A stretch of 64,000 nucleotides of DNA from Candidatus Scalindua sp. (GTDB lineage Bacteria; Planctomycetota; Brocadiia; Brocadiales; Scalinduaceae): assembly GCA_031316155.1 (NCBI GenBank), contig JALDRB010000008.1:62001-126000 (forward strand). Direction: 5' to 3'. Position 1 is the first letter of the stretch; each line of letters begins with the position of its first letter. The position numbers and the translations under genes were made by a program. Below are positions 1,066 through 64,000 of the stretch, piece after piece. The notes beneath the pieces were generated by a model that did not search any database, was not told the DNA's origin, and worked only from the letters and a program-made list of their open reading frames with translations.

Positions 1066-3408
1066 GTGCCAAGAGATATTCCCATAGGAAACGGGTCTTT
1101 ATTAGTAACTTTTGACGCAAACTATACTATTCGTGATATATACTATCCTTATGTTGGGAAGGAAAATCACTCCATGGGAAATCCGAGTAGATTCGGTGTG
1201 TGGACATCTAAAGGATTTTCATGGATTAACGCAAACGATTGGAAATTAAAACTTGAATATCAGAAGGAAACCCTTGTCACTTCCGTGCAAGCGATAAACG
1301 AATCCCTGCAGATTAAATTGACCTGCAACGACGTTGTAGATTTTGAGAAAAATATCTATCTGCGTAAGGTATTGGTGAGCAATATGAAAAACGAGGAAAG
1401 AGAAGTTCGCCTTTTCTTTCATCTGGATTTGAGTATCCTTGAAAATGATATTGGTGATACGGTTTTTTATGACGCCAAGCAAAATAGTCTTATCCACTAC
1501 AAAGGCTCCAGGTATTTTCTTGTTAATTGTTCTACTGAAGATTTTTGGGGTGTTCGTCAATACGCAACGGGAATAAAGAAGCTTCACGGAGCAGAAGGAA
1601 CTTGGCGTGATGCCGAAGATGGTATTCTTGGAGGAAATCCCATTGCTCAAGGTTCTGTGGATTCTATAATAGGAATTCCCCTGAAAATTTCACCCTTAGG
1701 AGAGTCTCTTGCGTATTATTGGATTGCTGCTGGTAATAATTATGGAGATGTTAATGCCCTGAATAACCTCCTTTTAAGCGAGAAACCTCAAGCGATTATA
1801 GACAGAACGGCGAGTTATTGGTGGCATTGGGTGAATAAAGAGGAATTCAACTTTGGTAATTTGCCTCTCGATGTAGTGGCTCTTTTTAAACGAAGTTTGC
1901 TCGTCATTGCGACACAGATTGATAGAGGAGGAGCCATCATCGCCGCAAATGACACCGATATCAGCCAATACGCAAGGGATACCTACAGTTATATGTGGCC
2001 TCGTGACGGCGCATTGGTAAGCTATGCACTAATGAAAGCGGGTTATACAATACAGTGCAGAAATTTTTTTGATTTCTGCTCACGGATAATTACGCCTTAC
2101 AATTTTTGCGCTAGTGTCATGGTTGAAGACGGGTTTTTATTGCATAAATATAATCCTGATGGTTCCTTTGGCAGCTCATGGCATCCATGGGTAATTGGAG
2201 AGGATATCCATATACCGATTCAGGAGGATGAGACGGCTTTGGTCCTCTGGGCTATCGGTCAATTCTACGACATATATAGAAATATTGAAGTAATACGATC
2301 ACTCTATCATACTTTCATAGAAAAGGCCGCAGATTTTCTTGTAAGTTATCGTGATGAACAGACAGGTCTTCCCCTTCCTTCCTATGACTTATGGGAGGAG
2401 AGGCGCGGGGTCTTATCGTTTACAACGGCGGCCGTATACGGCGGCCTGATAGCCGCAGCGAAACTTTCTGAAATATTTTGCCATACTGAAAAAGCCAGAT
2501 TGTACAGGCAGACTGCCGCACAAATGAGAAACGCTATTGGTCAATATCTTTATAGTGAAAAACACGAGAGGTTTGTGCGGATGATTTATCCCAAAAAAGA
2601 CGGAGGATATGAAATTGACGCAACCGTTGATGCCAGCTTATATGGGATGTTTGCCTTTGGTGTTTACCATCCGGATGACATTAAAGTAAAAAACACGATG
2701 AGGTCGATTGAGGAAAGCTTATGGGTTAAAACTAATGTAGGAGGAATAGCCAGATACGAGCGTGATCCATATCAACGTGTAAGTAATGATGAATCGATAC
2801 CGGGCAACCCGTGGATAATCTGTACAATGTGGTTGGCACAATACCAATCTTTGATAGCGAAATCTACAAAAGACCTTGAATGTGTGGTGCGACATCTAAA
2901 ATGGGTGGTATCACGGGCTTTACCTTCAGGCGTGCTCGCAGAGCAGATTAATCCATATACGGGCGAGCCTGTTTCTGTTTCTCCTTTAACATGGAGCCAT
3001 GCAACGGTAGTACAAACGGTGATTGATTATCTTGATAAGCTGCAGGAATTGCATATCTGTAATCAATGCGGACGCTCAATTTTTATTTATAACCGAAAAG
3101 GCCGCCAGCAATTAAAAAGGCGCGCTTCAGGATATACAGATGAAATTCCTGAGAAAGAACACTTTTACTACCTTGATCAGGCAAATATAATGAGTGGTGA
3201 TAAACCTGTTACGGTGAACGTAGATGAAACGAAATGTGTCGGCTGTGGAATATGCGTCGCGAATTCGGAAGGAGCTATGGAAGTGATTGCGGATAAGGCA
3301 AAGATAATTGCTGAAAAAACATCTGCATGGAATGTCCCGCCAGGTTTTGAAAAATGTTGTCCTTTAGGAGCTATCGCAGTAGTTGAGAACAATGAAGATA
3401 AGACATAA
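1066..3408 (+). CDS. GH15 glucoamylase/trehalase-like glycoside hydrolase fused to a C-terminal ferredoxin
   Basis: 780 residues starting at GTG; an in-frame stop lies at 1036 and no ATG intervenes. The opening MPRDIPIGNGSLLVTFD is the usual start of the bacterial GH15 beta-sandwich domain. The (alpha/alpha)6 barrel follows with YMWPRDGAL near 308-316 and SYDLWEERRG near 440, the catalytic-acid region. GH15 enzymes hydrolyse alpha-glucans or trehalose from the non-reducing end. After the barrel ends near 655 there is a lone Cys665-x2-Cys668 pair, then a single-cluster ferredoxin domain: Cys724, Cys727, Cys730 and Cys764/765 before PLGAI. This fits a [4Fe-4S] or [3Fe-4S] ferredoxin of the Fer4_13 type. 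There is no signal peptide, so it is cytosolic. The fused redox domain is unusual for GH15. The 3' end overlaps the kinase gene by 17 bases, suggesting one transcript. Confidence 0.85.
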   Translation: MPRDIPIGNGSLLVTFDANYTIRDIYYPYVGKENHSMGNPSRFGVWTSKGFSWINANDWKLKLEYQKETLVTSVQAINESLQIKLTCNDVVDFEKNIYLRKVLVSNMKNEEREVRLFFHLDLSILENDIGDTVFYDAKQNSLIHYKGSRYFLVNCSTEDFWGVRQYATGIKKLHGAEGTWRDAEDGILGGNPIAQGSVDSIIGIPLKISPLGESLAYYWIAAGNNYGDVNALNNLLLSEKPQAIIDRTASYWWHWVNKEEFNFGNLPLDVVALFKRSLLVIATQIDRGGAIIAANDTDISQYARDTYSYMWPRDGALVSYALMKAGYTIQCRNFFDFCSRIITPYNFCASVMVEDGFLLHKYNPDGSFGSSWHPWVIGEDIHIPIQEDETALVLWAIGQFYDIYRNIEVIRSLYHTFIEKAADFLVSYRDEQTGLPLPSYDLWEERRGVLSFTTAAVYGGLIAAAKLSEIFCHTEKARLYRQTAAQMRNAIGQYLYSEKHERFVRMIYPKKDGGYEIDATVDASLYGMFAFGVYHPDDIKVKNTMRSIEESLWVKTNVGGIARYERDPYQRVSNDESIPGNPWIICTMWLAQYQSLIAKSTKDLECVVRHLKWVVSRALPSGVLAEQINPYTGEPVSVSPLTWSHATVVQTVIDYLDKLQELHICNQCGRSIFIYNRKGRQQLKRRASGYTDEIPEKEHFYYLDQANIMSGDKPVTVNVDETKCVGCGICVANSEGAMEVIADKAKIIAEKTSAWNVPPGFEKCCPLGAIAVVENNEDKT

Positions 3409-5806
3409 ACTGGTAATCATCCTGGCGGCTTTACTGGTCACCCTTAATAGTATAGTTGCTTTCTTGGTTTATAACAGGACGCGCCAGGAATTTGTCAGAG
3501 AGATCCGGGAAAAGGCGCGGCTGATGGTTGTAGAACTGGAAACCACCAGGAACTACTTTGCATCCGTTTTCCATAATCAAAACATTGAAATTACTGACAA
3601 GACAAAATATTTTATCCCGGCGATTTCCACAAATGCAATTAGCAGGGGGTTTGCCGAAAAGACCGGCTATATTATCAAACAGACAAGTCTAAGATACCGA
3701 AATAAGGAAAATAAACCAGACGCCTTTGAGGAAGAAATGCTCAAGAAAATGGAAGCGGATCCCAACCTTCTGGAATATTGGGCCGATGATATTATAGAGG
3801 GGAAGAGAGTTGAACGTTATATGTACGCTTTATATGTAACAGATTCATGCATTACCTGCCATGGCCCTAAAGAACAAGCGCCCGCATTTATACAAAAAAA
3901 TTACAATGCGGGATATGATTATAAACTAGGGGAAATCAGGGGAGCTTTGAGCGTTGTTATACCAAAGGAAATAGACGAACAGAAGTTTGCATCAGATGTT
4001 ATCTTCTTTATAACAATCGGTTCTGTCAGTATCTTGTTGGTCGTGACAATTATTTTCCTGACAACAGGGAAACTTATGAGGCCTATTGAAAAACTAACAG
4101 CGGCTGTCGCGATTGTAACAAAAACCGGAGATCTTTCGACAAAGGTTGATATATCATCTAATGATGAAGTTGGACGACTCGGCATGGCCTTTAACGACAT
4201 GTCCAGCAAATTACGTTCTTCTTATGCACTGTTAGAGCAACGGATCGCCGAGAAAACCATTCATTTACAAAAGGCAATTCATGCCCTGGAACGTGCCAAT
4301 AAACTGAAATCGGAGTTTCTGGCCAACATGTCTCATGAGTTACGCACCCCCCTGAACGCAATAATTGGCTTCGCGGAGGTACTGAGGGACAAGATTTGCG
4401 GCGAGCTCAACGAAGAACAGTTGGATTTTGTAAAAGATATCCACAGCAGCGGCTATCATCTTTTGCAAATGATTAACGATATCCTCGATTTATCTAAAAT
4501 TGAGGCGGGGAAAATGGTTATTCAGCATGAGGTATTTCCTGTGACTGATGCCATTCAAGATGTGTACCATATAATACAGGGGCTTGCTGATAAAAAGCAT
4601 TTACACTTACAGAAAGACATACGTCCGGAGACAAAAGACATTGAAGCAGACCGGGTAAAATTTAAACAAATATTGTACAACCTGCTCTCAAACGCTATAA
4701 AATTCACTTCAGAGAACGGTAATATTGTTACAAAGGCGAGCATTATAGACGATATGTTACAGGTTTCGGTAGCGGACTCGGGAATTGGGATGAAACCTGA
4801 AGATCAGGAGAAGGTATTTAAAGAATTCTGGCAGGCTGATAGCTCATTTTCGCGAAAATACCAGGGTACCGGGTTGGGGCTCGCTTTGACAAAAAGGATT
4901 GTAGAAATGCATGGTGGGAAGATCTGGTTTGAAAGTGAATATGGGAAGGGAAGTACGTTTTATTTTATGTTACCTCTCAAGGCGATCTTTAGCATTCCAA
5001 AGTCAAAGGTGAATGAAGCCAGACTGCACAAGCCGGCAGGAAATGATGTGAAGGCTATTCTGGTAGTGGAGGACAACCGTATGGCGGCTGATCTTCTTAC
5101 GGTATATTTGACAAATGCGGGGTATAACGTAATTGTCGCAAAGGATGGCAAAGAAGCAATTAAAAAGGCAAAGGAGATGAAACCGCTTTTGATAACACTC
5201 GATATTATACTACCGAAGCTGGATGGGTGGGATGTTCTTTCAGAATTAAAAAATTCTCAGGACACAGCGGATATTCCGGTCATTATTGTGTCAGTCACAG
5301 AAAATAAGGATATCGGGTATAGTTTGGGGGCAGCCAGCTACCTGATGAAACCAGTTGACAGGAAAATACTCATCAACACGGTAAATATTATCACATCAAA
5401 TCTAAGCGCAAAGGATAAGCCGGTGGAAATATTGGTTGTAGATGATGAGGAAAAGGACGTCAAATACGTAAGCACCGTTCTTAATGGGGCAGGGTTCAAG
5501 GTGCTTACGGCGTATGGTGGCAAAGCCGGGATCGAGCTTGCAATAAGCAAAAATCCTGATCTTATCATTCTTGATCTGATGATGCCGGATATCAGCGGTT
5601 TTGATGTAGTTGAAAATCTCAGGAAACATCCGGTAGCAAGAAATATTCCCATTGTCATATGTTCCGCAAAGGATATTACCCCTGAAGACAAAAAAAAGTT
5701 AAATGGCAATATTATGGCAATCGTACAAAAGGGAAGCCATACAAAGGAAGAACTTCTTTTGGAGATTCAGAATATAGAAAAATACATGCAAAAAAATGGT
5801 AATTGA
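3392..5806 (+). CDS. c-haem-sensing hybrid histidine kinase (DUF3365/Tll0287-like sensor, HAMP, HisKA, HATPase, two REC)
   Basis: 804 residues from ATG 3392, which is preferred to the upstream TTG at 3383 because the sensor starts MKIRHKLVIIL. Order: membrane helix (about 7-27); periplasmic DUF3365-like sensor with a c-type haem motif CITCH at 153-157; second helix near 203-225; HAMP; HisKA with MSHELRTP (phosphoacceptor His315); HATPase with GTGLGLAL; receiver domain 1 (Asp604); receiver domain 2 (Asp728). DUF3365 domains with CxxCH bind haem c and are thought to sense redox state or diatomic ligands. Two trailing receivers point to a multistep phosphorelay, likely passing phosphate to the receiver proteins just downstream. 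Translationally overlapped with the GH15-ferredoxin gene. Confidence 0.9.
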   Translation: MKIRHKLVIILAALLVTLNSIVAFLVYNRTRQEFVREIREKARLMVVELETTRNYFASVFHNQNIEITDKTKYFIPAISTNAISRGFAEKTGYIIKQTSLRYRNKENKPDAFEEEMLKKMEADPNLLEYWADDIIEGKRVERYMYALYVTDSCITCHGPKEQAPAFIQKNYNAGYDYKLGEIRGALSVVIPKEIDEQKFASDVIFFITIGSVSILLVVTIIFLTTGKLMRPIEKLTAAVAIVTKTGDLSTKVDISSNDEVGRLGMAFNDMSSKLRSSYALLEQRIAEKTIHLQKAIHALERANKLKSEFLANMSHELRTPLNAIIGFAEVLRDKICGELNEEQLDFVKDIHSSGYHLLQMINDILDLSKIEAGKMVIQHEVFPVTDAIQDVYHIIQGLADKKHLHLQKDIRPETKDIEADRVKFKQILYNLLSNAIKFTSENGNIVTKASIIDDMLQVSVADSGIGMKPEDQEKVFKEFWQADSSFSRKYQGTGLGLALTKRIVEMHGGKIWFESEYGKGSTFYFMLPLKAIFSIPKSKVNEARLHKPAGNDVKAILVVEDNRMAADLLTVYLTNAGYNVIVAKDGKEAIKKAKEMKPLLITLDIILPKLDGWDVLSELKNSQDTADIPVIIVSVTENKDIGYSLGAASYLMKPVDRKILINTVNIITSNLSAKDKPVEILVVDDEEKDVKYVSTVLNGAGFKVLTAYGGKAGIELAISKNPDLIILDLMMPDISGFDVVENLRKHPVARNIPIVICSAKDITPEDKKKLNGNIMAIVQKGSHTKEELLLEIQNIEKYMQKNGN

Positions 5807-61217: not shown

Positions 61218-61625
61218 TCAGGCCATACAATTGTACCCGTTCATTTGATTGGAGTGAACGTATAGTTCAGCAGTGACGATCTGGTGACGCACGTGTTTTT
61301 AGATTTTAATTCGTAAGACTCTAATTCTATTTAGCATGAAAATACCGAAGCGGGGATTCGAACCCCGATTATAAAAATGCTAAGCTGCTTTATGTAAAAT
61401 ATTTAATGTTTCAAAAGGGCCGTTTTTTGTCTCTGTCGTCTCTGGAATTGGATTTTGCAAGGCAAACTTACATTCTGGATAAGTCAGGAGGCAGACACAT
61501 TTTTCCCATTCAGACATTTCCCAACACACAACGAAAATGTACTTGTTAGGCTTTCGGTTTCATGGGTTTTTGAGTGTTTATATAACTTCGGCAATCACAC
61601 AGAAACATAGTATGATCTTGCTATT
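61218..61625. other. intergenic region at the start of the accessory end
   Basis: 408 bases. A small stem, CGTTCA/TGAACG, follows the dioxygenase gene without a T run. The tRNA 3' fragment at 61343-61380 is the main feature. No ORF. Confidence 0.5.
61343..61380 (-). other. tRNA 3' fragment (T-arm and acceptor strand), possible attachment site
   Basis: On the minus strand CGGGG-TTCGAAT-CCCCG (61367-61351) is a canonical T-arm, followed by CTTCGGT plus A, a 7-base acceptor strand with discriminator. The matching 5' half (ACCGAAG, D-arm, anticodon arm) is not found in the next 150 bases. A 3' tRNA piece without a 5' half is the typical trace of integrase-mediated insertion. It marks the boundary between housekeeping genes and the accessory end. 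Confidence 0.6.
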
Positions 61626-61841
61626 ATGCGCACTGCAATGGAAGATAAAAAAATATCCGATATGACAGGCAGGGAGCTCAGGGAACTAATAAGGGATACC
61701 GTATTAGAAGTTATTGATCCTGATTATGGACTTGAGTTAAGGTCGGAGGTAGAGGAAAGCCTTAAAGATTCTATACAGGATAAAGAGGCTGGCAAAGGGA
61801 TAACGCTTGATGCAGCAAAAAAAGAATTAGGGATTGAGTAG
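61626..61841 (+). CDS. small orphan antitoxin-like protein
   Basis: 71 residues (ATG 61626 or, more likely, 61638): acidic, with the MTGRELRELIRDTVLEVIDPDYGLEL pattern seen in many small proteins associated with toxin-antitoxin loci. It ends with KGITLDAAKKELGIE. No RelE/HigB-type toxin gene lies next to it, so if an antitoxin it is an orphan. Function not shown by the sequence. Confidence 0.6.
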   Translation: MRTAMEDKKISDMTGRELRELIRDTVLEVIDPDYGLELRSEVEESLKDSIQDKEAGKGITLDAAKKELGIE

Positions 61842-62089
61842 AAAAGAGATTTACAATCTTTAAAGCATTGCACGTAGCGTTAAACATTCCGGAATCTTAT
61901 TATCTTAGCGGTCATACCTTTACGAATTAATTCGACACATCCCCACATAGTAAAACTATACTCCTTAGATCGTTTTGCATTCCCTTATTTTGCGACAGTC
62001 TGCCAAATAATTCATTCAATGAATTATTTATTTTGATGAATCACGGTGTTAACTTTATTATTATCATGGTCTAAGGGAGGCGTTAAACC

Positions 62090-62281
62090 ATGATCAATCT
62101 TGATTTCAGTAACAGGCCTGACGCAACAAGGTCTTTATCGTTGAGCATTCCATTTAGAGATTTTGTCTATCTCGAAGGGTTGGCCAGGGCTCAGGGATCT
62201 TCGCTTAACAAACTGGTCAAGAGATCAATTCAAGAGAGTCTTAAACGAGAGGTTGCAGGATACATAATCCCGGAAGTTTGA
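62090..62281 (+). CDS. ribbon-helix-helix/HicB-like small protein
   Basis: 63 residues with GGGAGG about 10 bases before the ATG. SLSLSIPFRDFVYLEGLARAQGSSLNKLVKRSIQESL resembles the beta-strand-helix-helix of RHH DNA-binding antitoxins. No toxin partner recognised. Confidence 0.6.
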   Translation: MINLDFSNRPDATRSLSLSIPFRDFVYLEGLARAQGSSLNKLVKRSIQESLKREVAGYIIPEV

Positions 62282-62412
62282 AGCGATACCCGAAAGACGC
62301 AAAAAATTTACTACATGACCGGAAATAGCTGAGAGGCGAATTAAGGTACATATTTATGAGAATTGGATGTGGTCTATTTAAATATTAACCGTAAGAGAGG
62401 ACGCATGAATCA

Positions 62413-62733
62413 ATGAATTACATACTGACAATTACAACAGATTTTTTGCTCTTGTTGCTTGCCACACCGCTCGTGTTCGCTCAGGGCGCAGGCATTGAAT
62501 GGGAAATCCTTAATCAGGAGGTTATGGATCTTTATCGTACGGGCAAATATGGCCGTGCCGTCGTTGTCGCCAAGAAGGCCCTCGAAGTAGCCGAGAAAAA
62601 CGTAGGTCTTAATCATCCCGATGTGGCCTCATGCCTTGAGAACTTGGCGGCGCTGTATCGAGATACGAAACGGAACGAAGACGCCAAAACACTGGAGCAA
62701 CGTGCGGCCCGTATCCGATCTATCCAACGATAA
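62413..62733 (+). CDS. exported short TPR protein
   Basis: 106 residues: signal peptide about 1-23 (TTDFLLLLLATPLVFA), then one and a half tetratricopeptide repeats of the kinesin-light-chain type (LYRTGKYGRAVVVAKKALEVAEKNVGLNHPDVASCLENLAALY). Members of this family usually have many repeats, so this looks like a shortened version. It may bind peptides or partners in the periplasm. Confidence 0.7.
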   Translation: MNYILTITTDFLLLLLATPLVFAQGAGIEWEILNQEVMDLYRTGKYGRAVVVAKKALEVAEKNVGLNHPDVASCLENLAALYRDTKRNEDAKTLEQRAARIRSIQR

Positions 62734-62891
62734 AGTAAACGGTTAACAAGAGGCTCCTTGAGTGAGTCTTAAGATAGCAATTAACATCAAATACCCAAGA
62801 AAAGCAAAAGTATTATATGTACTAACAGCCGTAAAATAGGGCGGTTATTAGTACGGATAATTCATGTTATACATGAAAAGGGGTATCAATC

Positions 62892-63584
62892 ATGGCGTTG
62901 TATGAAAAATCAGTCAAACTTCTTTTCCGAGACATGATAAAAGACCTCGATATTCAAAAAGGCGACGTTATAGAACAAGACAAAATAAATTCCTGGTTCA
63001 ACAAAAAATATCCCCTTATAAAGCCTGGCACAATTTCAGCTCATTTGCTTAAGCTATCAATAAATGCCCCTAGCCGAATACATTACAGCGTTGATCCAAA
63101 TGGTAAAGACGATCTTCTTTTCCAGATTGATAGCAAAAAATTTCGTCTTTACGACCAAGCTTCAGATCCAGACCCTATTTATTTACGACAAAAAGAAGAT
63201 GAGAAAGATCTTCAGAATTTCTTGGCAAAGAATCTATCCCTTATTGAGCCGGGCCTAACCTTATATATGGAAGAGGAAATTAGCGGTATCGAGTTTCCCG
63301 TAGGGAACCGGTTCATCGATATATTGGCAATCGATAGTAACAACAATTATGTGGTCATAGAACTTAAAGTATCGCGCGGGTACGATAGGGTTGTAGGCCA
63401 AATCCTTCGCTATATGGCATAGATCAGAAAAAACCATGCAGAAGAAAGTCAGAAAGTGCGAGGCATAATAATCGCCCGTGAGATTTCGGATGATCTTCTG
63501 CTGGCATGTTCTGAGACGAATAATGTTGAACTGTACGAATACAACCTATCGATAACATTGAACAAAATAAAGATGAATGTATAA
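62892..63584 (+). pseudogene. NucS/DUF91-like endonuclease interrupted by one in-frame TAG
   Basis: From ATG 62892 (AGGGG about 9 bases upstream) the frame runs 176 codons to TAG 63420-63422 and continues in frame for 54 codons to TAA 63582-63584. The two parts form one DUF91/NucS-like protein: RFIDILAID and VVIELKVSRG (the D...ExK nuclease site), GQILRYMA, stop, then IRKNHAEESQKVRGIIIARE and NVELYEYNLSITL. Relatives normally have Trp (TGG) where the TAG is, so one G-to-A change explains it. The catalytic residues come before the stop. The final TAA overlaps the attC-like site, as in integron cassettes. Confidence 0.8.
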
Positions 63585-63654
63585 CAACCGCATCAACTCG
63601 GACTGGCAAATCCGCTGCGCTCCTTTGCCAGCCGGTTATGCGGAGCCGTTAACT
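63579..63654 (+). repeat. integron attC-like recombination site
   Basis: 76 bases. The left end has TATAAC (63580-63585), then CGCATCAACTCGGACTGGCAAA; the right end is TTTGCCAGCCGGTTATGCGG and then GTTAACT (63648-63654). CTGGCAAA/TTTGCCAG and CGCAT/ATGCG pair across a short GC-rich loop, and AAC/GTT close the ends. AACTCGGAC is a very common string in attC sites. The left end overlaps the NucS-like stop and the next gene starts 5 bases after the right end, the spacing expected of cassettes. No integrase gene is in the window. Confidence 0.75.
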
Positions 63655-63659
63655 GCCAT

Positions 63660-64000
63660 ATGAAAATTGTTACCTGGAACTGTAATAGAGCACTTAGAAA
63701 GAAATTAGCAAAAGCTGATTCTTTAGGTGCTGATGTTTTAGTAATTCAAGAATGTGAAGATCCTTCACAGTCCACAAAAGAATATCGCAAATGGGCTGGT
63801 GAATATCTCTGGGCAGGAACATCAAAAAACAAGGGTATTGGTATATTTCCCAAAAAAGGAAATATCATCTCAAGATTAGAATGGTCCGGTAGGTTTGAAT
63901 TAAAAGGTTTAAAAACCAAAAGCTTTTCTACTAGCTGGAAAACCGAAGATTTAAAGCTGTTTTTCCCCTTTTGCTTAAACAACAAATTCAATATTCTAGC
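63660..64000 (+). CDS. endonuclease/exonuclease/phosphatase (EEP) family protein, 3' truncated by window edge
   Basis: Starts MKIVTWNCNRALRKKLAKAD and runs open to the last base (113 codons seen). TWNCN and VLVIQECEDP, with the metal-binding Asn and Glu, are the N-terminal signature of the EEP/exodeoxyribonuclease III superfamily; GIGIFPKK follows. The downstream His and Asp motifs lie outside the window. The ATG is 5 bases after the attC-like site, suggesting a gene cassette. Confidence 0.8.
   Translation, partial: MKIVTWNCNRALRKKLAKADSLGADVLVIQECEDPSQSTKEYRKWAGEYLWAGTSKNKGIGIFPKKGNIISRLEWSGRFELKGLKTKSFSTSWKTEDLKLFFPFCLNNKFNIL

Follow-up and report, generated by a model that had tools for sequence, protein, structure and literature searches.

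The locus at the right end of the window, a stretch of 64,000 nucleotides from a 245-kb Candidatus Scalindua contig (C25) that runs on past it, is very probably what remains of the proximal end of a sedentary chromosomal integron, now decayed, whose host is a planctomycete of the order Brocadiales, the anammox order. With a putative attI remnant at 62799-62869, the window holds attI, cassette 1, its attC site (attC1) and the start of cassette 2; beyond the window lie more attCs, and cassettes 2-6 make five further cassettes after cassette 1. Coordinates downstream are given in the overlapping stretch L005, where position n corresponds to window position n + 63000.

The attC1 palindrome is imperfect, 76 bases long, and lies exactly at 63579-63654 (+ strand). 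Its R'' core, GTATAAC (63579-63585), and its R' core, GTTAACT (63648-63654), each agree with the consensus at six of seven bases (RYYYAAC and GTTRRRY, respectively). The initial annotation had pointed to the string AACTCGGAC, to overlap with the upstream stop codon and to a start codon 5 bases after the palindrome, and all are present: the TAA of the upstream frame (63582-63584) overlaps R'', and an ATG at 63660 stands 5 bases 3' of R'. Folded as single-stranded DNA the site reaches -18 to -18.7 kcal/mol (z = -3.4 to -3.6, equaled by 1 of 200 shuffles), and its core-plus-arm score of 23.5 exceeds the best score, 22.5, in 416 kb of Markov null sequence. Because the core-plus-arm scan is unspecific at low scores (~19 null matches per 100 kb at score 18), a covariance model, R1, was built from 20 attCs taken beside other arrays and intI genes, with attC1 and its near-identical relatives excluded and no training site from the window's contig. 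R1, whose training sites were picked by the same scan and hence are enriched for its criteria, gives attC1 27.7 bits (E 0.0015 for 262 kb searched). Its search of the window returned no match besides 63579-63654, and an Rfam scan of the window matched nothing. Three diverged relatives of attC1 were found elsewhere in the same genome. The attC plan first proposed for this palindrome is thus upheld by its cores, a fold z near -3.5 and the R1 score. Judged by fold, core scan, covariance model and recurrence elsewhere, 63579-63654 is a genuine integron attC site, with recombination by IntI predicted.

The attC1 type occurs far beyond this genome. A search of genome contigs found its left-half pattern, nearly unchanged, in 64 genome stretches, most of which have the whole palindrome, and the sequence right after GTT varies by copy. 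The hosts range over sulfate reducers, Syntrophales, Nitrospirae, Chloroflexi, Cyanobacteria, Planctomycetes and one archaeal bin; the stretches come mostly from MAGs, so that single taxonomic labels may be wrong, and include the isolates Desulfosarcina cetonica and Desulfacinum hydrothermale. Other, dissimilar attCs lie a few kb from many of these sites. The type was not found in viral contigs, searched with the exact pattern, nor in plasmids or phages. In Planctomycetia bacterium H5_AMX3 an attC1-type site closes the gene directly after an intact 344-aa IntI. At that locus (L037:5070-7381) the intact intI and the first cassette gene are co-directional, in the order intI, cassette, attC, instead of showing the usual divergent layout.

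The 160 bases 5' of cassette 1 hold an element with further copies both in this genome and in relatives. A sequence model, R2, made from 22 other copies with the window copy left out, matches 62799-62869 (+ strand, E 1.7e-18) at model positions 54-124 of 125, i.e. the right half of the element. When the copies are aligned in orientation, they are conserved through ...TTCATGTTA and not beyond: conservation drops from 86% to 50% directly 3' of GTTA, and the median end point of homology lies at -1 base relative to GTTA (5-95% range -17 to +6, 669 pairwise alignments). Seventeen of 41 copies are accompanied by IntI pieces on the other strand, between -120 and -920, usually beginning near residue 27 at about -190 to -250; no uninterrupted full-length IntI occurs among the pieces at these 41 copies. 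The attCs lie downstream on the same strand, both at the first 20 attI loci (16/16 with E < 0.03) and at a second set (all 14 listed), giving 30/30 where random position and strand would put about a quarter. Two further genomes, G010 and G042, have diverged GTTA-ending versions at the same position beside an intact intI, with weak matches (E 9e-4 and 0.29). We identify the element as attI because of its fixed spacing from intI, the end of homology at GTTA, the attCs that all lie downstream, and the diverged forms beside intact intI. At those 17 copies it stands where attI is expected, next to the intI start, pointing away from intI and at the array head; the window copy is without intI. From the R2 match, the geometry and the sharp homology end, we conclude that 62799-62869 is probably an attI remnant with its left half missing, and we infer a crossover between G62866 and T62867. 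The initial annotation had suggested the edge of a CALIN lying just beyond the window. The attCs without intI fit that suggestion, but the array's proximal end lies inside the window, and since the attI remnant is there too, the locus probably was once a complete integron, which makes it more than an array edge.

To the left of the remnant lies a ~0.7-kb segment (61572-62288, + strand) with two small ribbon-helix-helix or antitoxin-like ORFs. It is repeated at C22:151502-152220 and in part at C25:142297-142655 and C21:159238-159576, and it stands directly left of attI twice, in the window and at C22:151-152 kb (86% identical). Because these two attI copies share their left segment, one place may duplicate the other, and such a duplication may postdate the loss of intI there. 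A TPR-repeat gene (62413-62733, + strand; Pfam TPR_10, TPR_12) lies between the segment and the attI remnant, roughly where intI would be expected.

No similarity to IntI was found anywhere in the window or in L005, in agreement with the earlier remark that no integrase was in view. In this genome R2 picks out about 12 places, from 17 matches that include echoes of the inverted repeat on the opposite strand; across the survey it matches in 29 of 98 genomes and in none of the 36 outside Brocadiales. This genome and several Brocadiales relatives hold many such decayed integrons. Here intI survives in broken pieces only, on C1 and C22 and, in short fragments, at additional attI copies of C22 and C26. 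The C1 piece (222 aa) is without its middle segment, in which the GLRL box I motif contains a catalytic Arg; it belongs to a second integron (L013:7909-11792), which shows the usual divergent layout and has four attCs, and the cassettes there include, as read by eye, an SDR-family gene and a BrnT/BrnA-like pair. On C22 the C-terminal part of IntI survives. Two same-orientation attI copies lie ~3.3 kb apart on that contig (L012:7724-11168), the second diverged, and the C-terminal intI piece beside this pair shares 88% identity with an intact IntI from a different genus. With the assembly at 92% completeness, the genome may still have an intact intI elsewhere. A tyrosine recombinase 31 kb downstream was rejected as an IntI type (21% identity), and tyrosine recombinases at C5, C21 and C25 were rejected as integron integrases (weak IntI match, or XerD/phage-integrase-like). 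An empty site was sought in a congeneric genome through the groEL flank and the downstream ABC transporter, and none was resolved; the groEL region was located there, and the ABC transporter gene is without a close counterpart.

Cassette 1 (62867-63648, + strand) starts with the TT of the attI core and ends with the G of the R' core of attC1, its bounds set by both cores. Its gene (62892-63584, + strand) has DUF7669 and NucS_C matches (Pfam E 2e-13 and 6e-13) and is PD-(D/E)XK-type nuclease-like. An in-frame TAG at 63420-63422, where homologues have Trp, reflects a nonsense mutation, an assembly error being the less likely cause, and this TAG breaks the frame that ends in attC1. The closest homologue, in a congeneric genome, lies directly 5' of an attC (L138 1389-1473), which supports the window gene being a cassette gene; an intact intI (C22:5196-6134 of the congeneric genome) lies ~3 kb from this homologue. 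Cassette 2 (63649-64000, continuing to L005:1473, window-equivalent 64473; + strand) carries a 250-aa gene of the endonuclease/exonuclease/phosphatase family (63660-64000, + strand, exiting the window; full ORF L005:660-1412, Pfam Exo_endo_phos E 1.6e-9). The description of attC1 as flanked by two cassette-like genes thus stands as to the cassette context, but the upstream gene is broken.

Further attCs past 64000, and matches on this contig to an attC covariance model, were what the initial annotation had proposed to look for, and both were found, R1 matching attC1 and downstream sites. attC2 (L005 1407-1479) comes from the core-plus-arm scan and has a weak R1 match (15.2 bits, E 1.7); attC3 (L005 ~1990-2075), with its degenerate R'', was recognized by eye; the attC4 region (L005 2814-3033), matched by R1 at 2814-2899 and 2976-3033, is partly similar to a Smithella array (L039); and attC5 (L005 ~3438-3562), whose R'' is degenerate, shows 71% identity over 115 bases to an attC of a relative. 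Their spacing from attC1 is +0.83, ~+1.4, +2.2 and +2.9 kb. The cassette 3 gene (167 aa) gives a weak PD-(D/E)XK hint, no family was found for that of cassette 4 (244 aa), and that of cassette 5 is a small membrane protein with an apparent frameshift, as read by eye. Cassette 6 encodes an Mrr type IV restriction enzyme (PADLOC mREase_IV E 2e-85; Mrr_cat match), split by an IS1380-family element with similar ends and flanking CCTAGC repeats. The locus is decaying, as seen in the nonsense codon of cassette 1, the apparent frameshift of cassette 5 and the IS1380 insertion in cassette 6. The suggestion of nuclease-type genes that could serve in defence is clearly borne out for one cassette only, the IS-split Mrr; the rest are nuclease-like or without an assigned family. 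Further along (L005:12818-14539, minus strand) lies a 573-aa ORF that, as read by eye, seems to fuse a radical-SAM-like part with a cupin-like C-terminal part, and the ORF next to it is likewise cupin-like.

The layout suggests the following history. IntI, a tyrosine recombinase, would once have put circular gene cassettes into attI, a use of these sites that we infer, and each insertion would have linked the cassette, at its TT, to the G of the GTT core in attI. Recognition of attC through its bottom strand is established for integrons; each cassette here would likewise have brought its own attC, recognized as a folded single (bottom) strand. Successive captures would have produced the array attI - cassette 1 - attC1 - cassette 2 - attC2 and so on. 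Both intI and the left half of attI would have been lost later at this locus, and the array would now be static unless integrase is supplied in trans.

Three other readings have to be weighed against this history. That the palindrome is a transcription terminator or another hairpin that merely resembles attC is extremely unlikely: it does sit between two genes of the same orientation, but it has no T run and does have specific core sites, an independent attC model matches it, the same site recurs in arrays across phyla with different genes behind the GTT, and more attCs follow downstream. The element at 62799-62869 might instead be a mobile hairpin repeat of the MITE or REP type that accompanies integrons, in which case the window would hold no more than the inner part of a CALIN. 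Its inverted repeat, its presence at about a dozen places in the genome and the 24 of 41 copies without a recognizable adjacent intI piece would suit such a repeat; yet its position and orientation are fixed relative to intI and attC, homology stops right at the GTTA core and what follows is cassette-type sequence, and diverged forms occupy the attI position of intact integrons, so that we consider the mobile repeat very unlikely.

The third reading is a CALIN that never had a platform, whose cassettes an integrase working in trans put into a secondary site by chance. CALINs reportedly outnumber complete integrons and have a wider distribution (PMC9668308), and no intI piece is left at the window locus. 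Against this, cassette 1 is headed directly by a partial attI of the type proper to this clade, and the same attI element carries intI remnants elsewhere; we judge this reading very unlikely, and keep to a decayed integron with its own platform. A more far-reaching proposal, which we put forward tentatively and with somewhat less than even confidence, is that one intI-attI platform lineage multiplied, inside the anammox order, to at least a dozen chromosomal places per genome and then lost its integrase nearly everywhere; it would have left attI-headed arrays on which intact IntIs encoded at other loci or in other strains may still act in trans.

Among known systems, the array falls under what IntegronFinder terms a CALIN, an attC cluster that lacks an integron integrase, because no integrase gene is near: several attCs lie within 4 kb of one another, all oriented alike and separated by cassette-sized genes, and intI is absent from the vicinity. 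It differs from a CALIN in being headed by a partial attI, which ordinary CALIN calls do not identify. A complete integron has a functional intI beside attI, and the window locus has none. With attI followed by unidirectional cassettes that each end in an attC, the locus resembles a sedentary chromosomal integron, the intact form of which occurs in relatives of the same order, but it is without intI and the left half of attI, and several of its cassette genes are broken. In the survey of Nemergut et al. 2008 (PMC2426708), close to a third of the intI genes were scored as pseudogenes, and 20% of the bacteria with integrons had more than one integrase gene. Their pseudo-integrons are like ours in that integrase genes have decayed and a genome may hold more than a single integron; here, in contrast, there are ~12 attI places in a genome and no intact intI, and recognition comes through attI, not intI. 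No description of integrons in anammox bacteria was found in the literature searched, which does not prove that there is none. A decayed integron is of a known kind, and the clade-specific, many-copy attI without integrase appears to be new. Near-identical attCs have been reported in different phyla and even in different domains (Ghaly et al. 2022, PMC9668308), and attC clustering is said to follow environment more than phylogeny (Ghaly et al. 2021, PMC8352920). The attC1 type, near-identical in unrelated phyla, agrees with both reports, the difference perhaps being the particular attC type named here, and its spread is consistent with cassettes drawn from a widely exchanged gene pool. Tools that use only attC and intact intI would class the window locus as a CALIN with no known origin; an attI model specific to the clade reveals it as a probable dead integron, and enables the counting of integron gain and loss in the order that contains the anammox bacteria. 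Whether CALINs are the corpses of integrons or arrays inserted in trans is thereby made testable for one clade.
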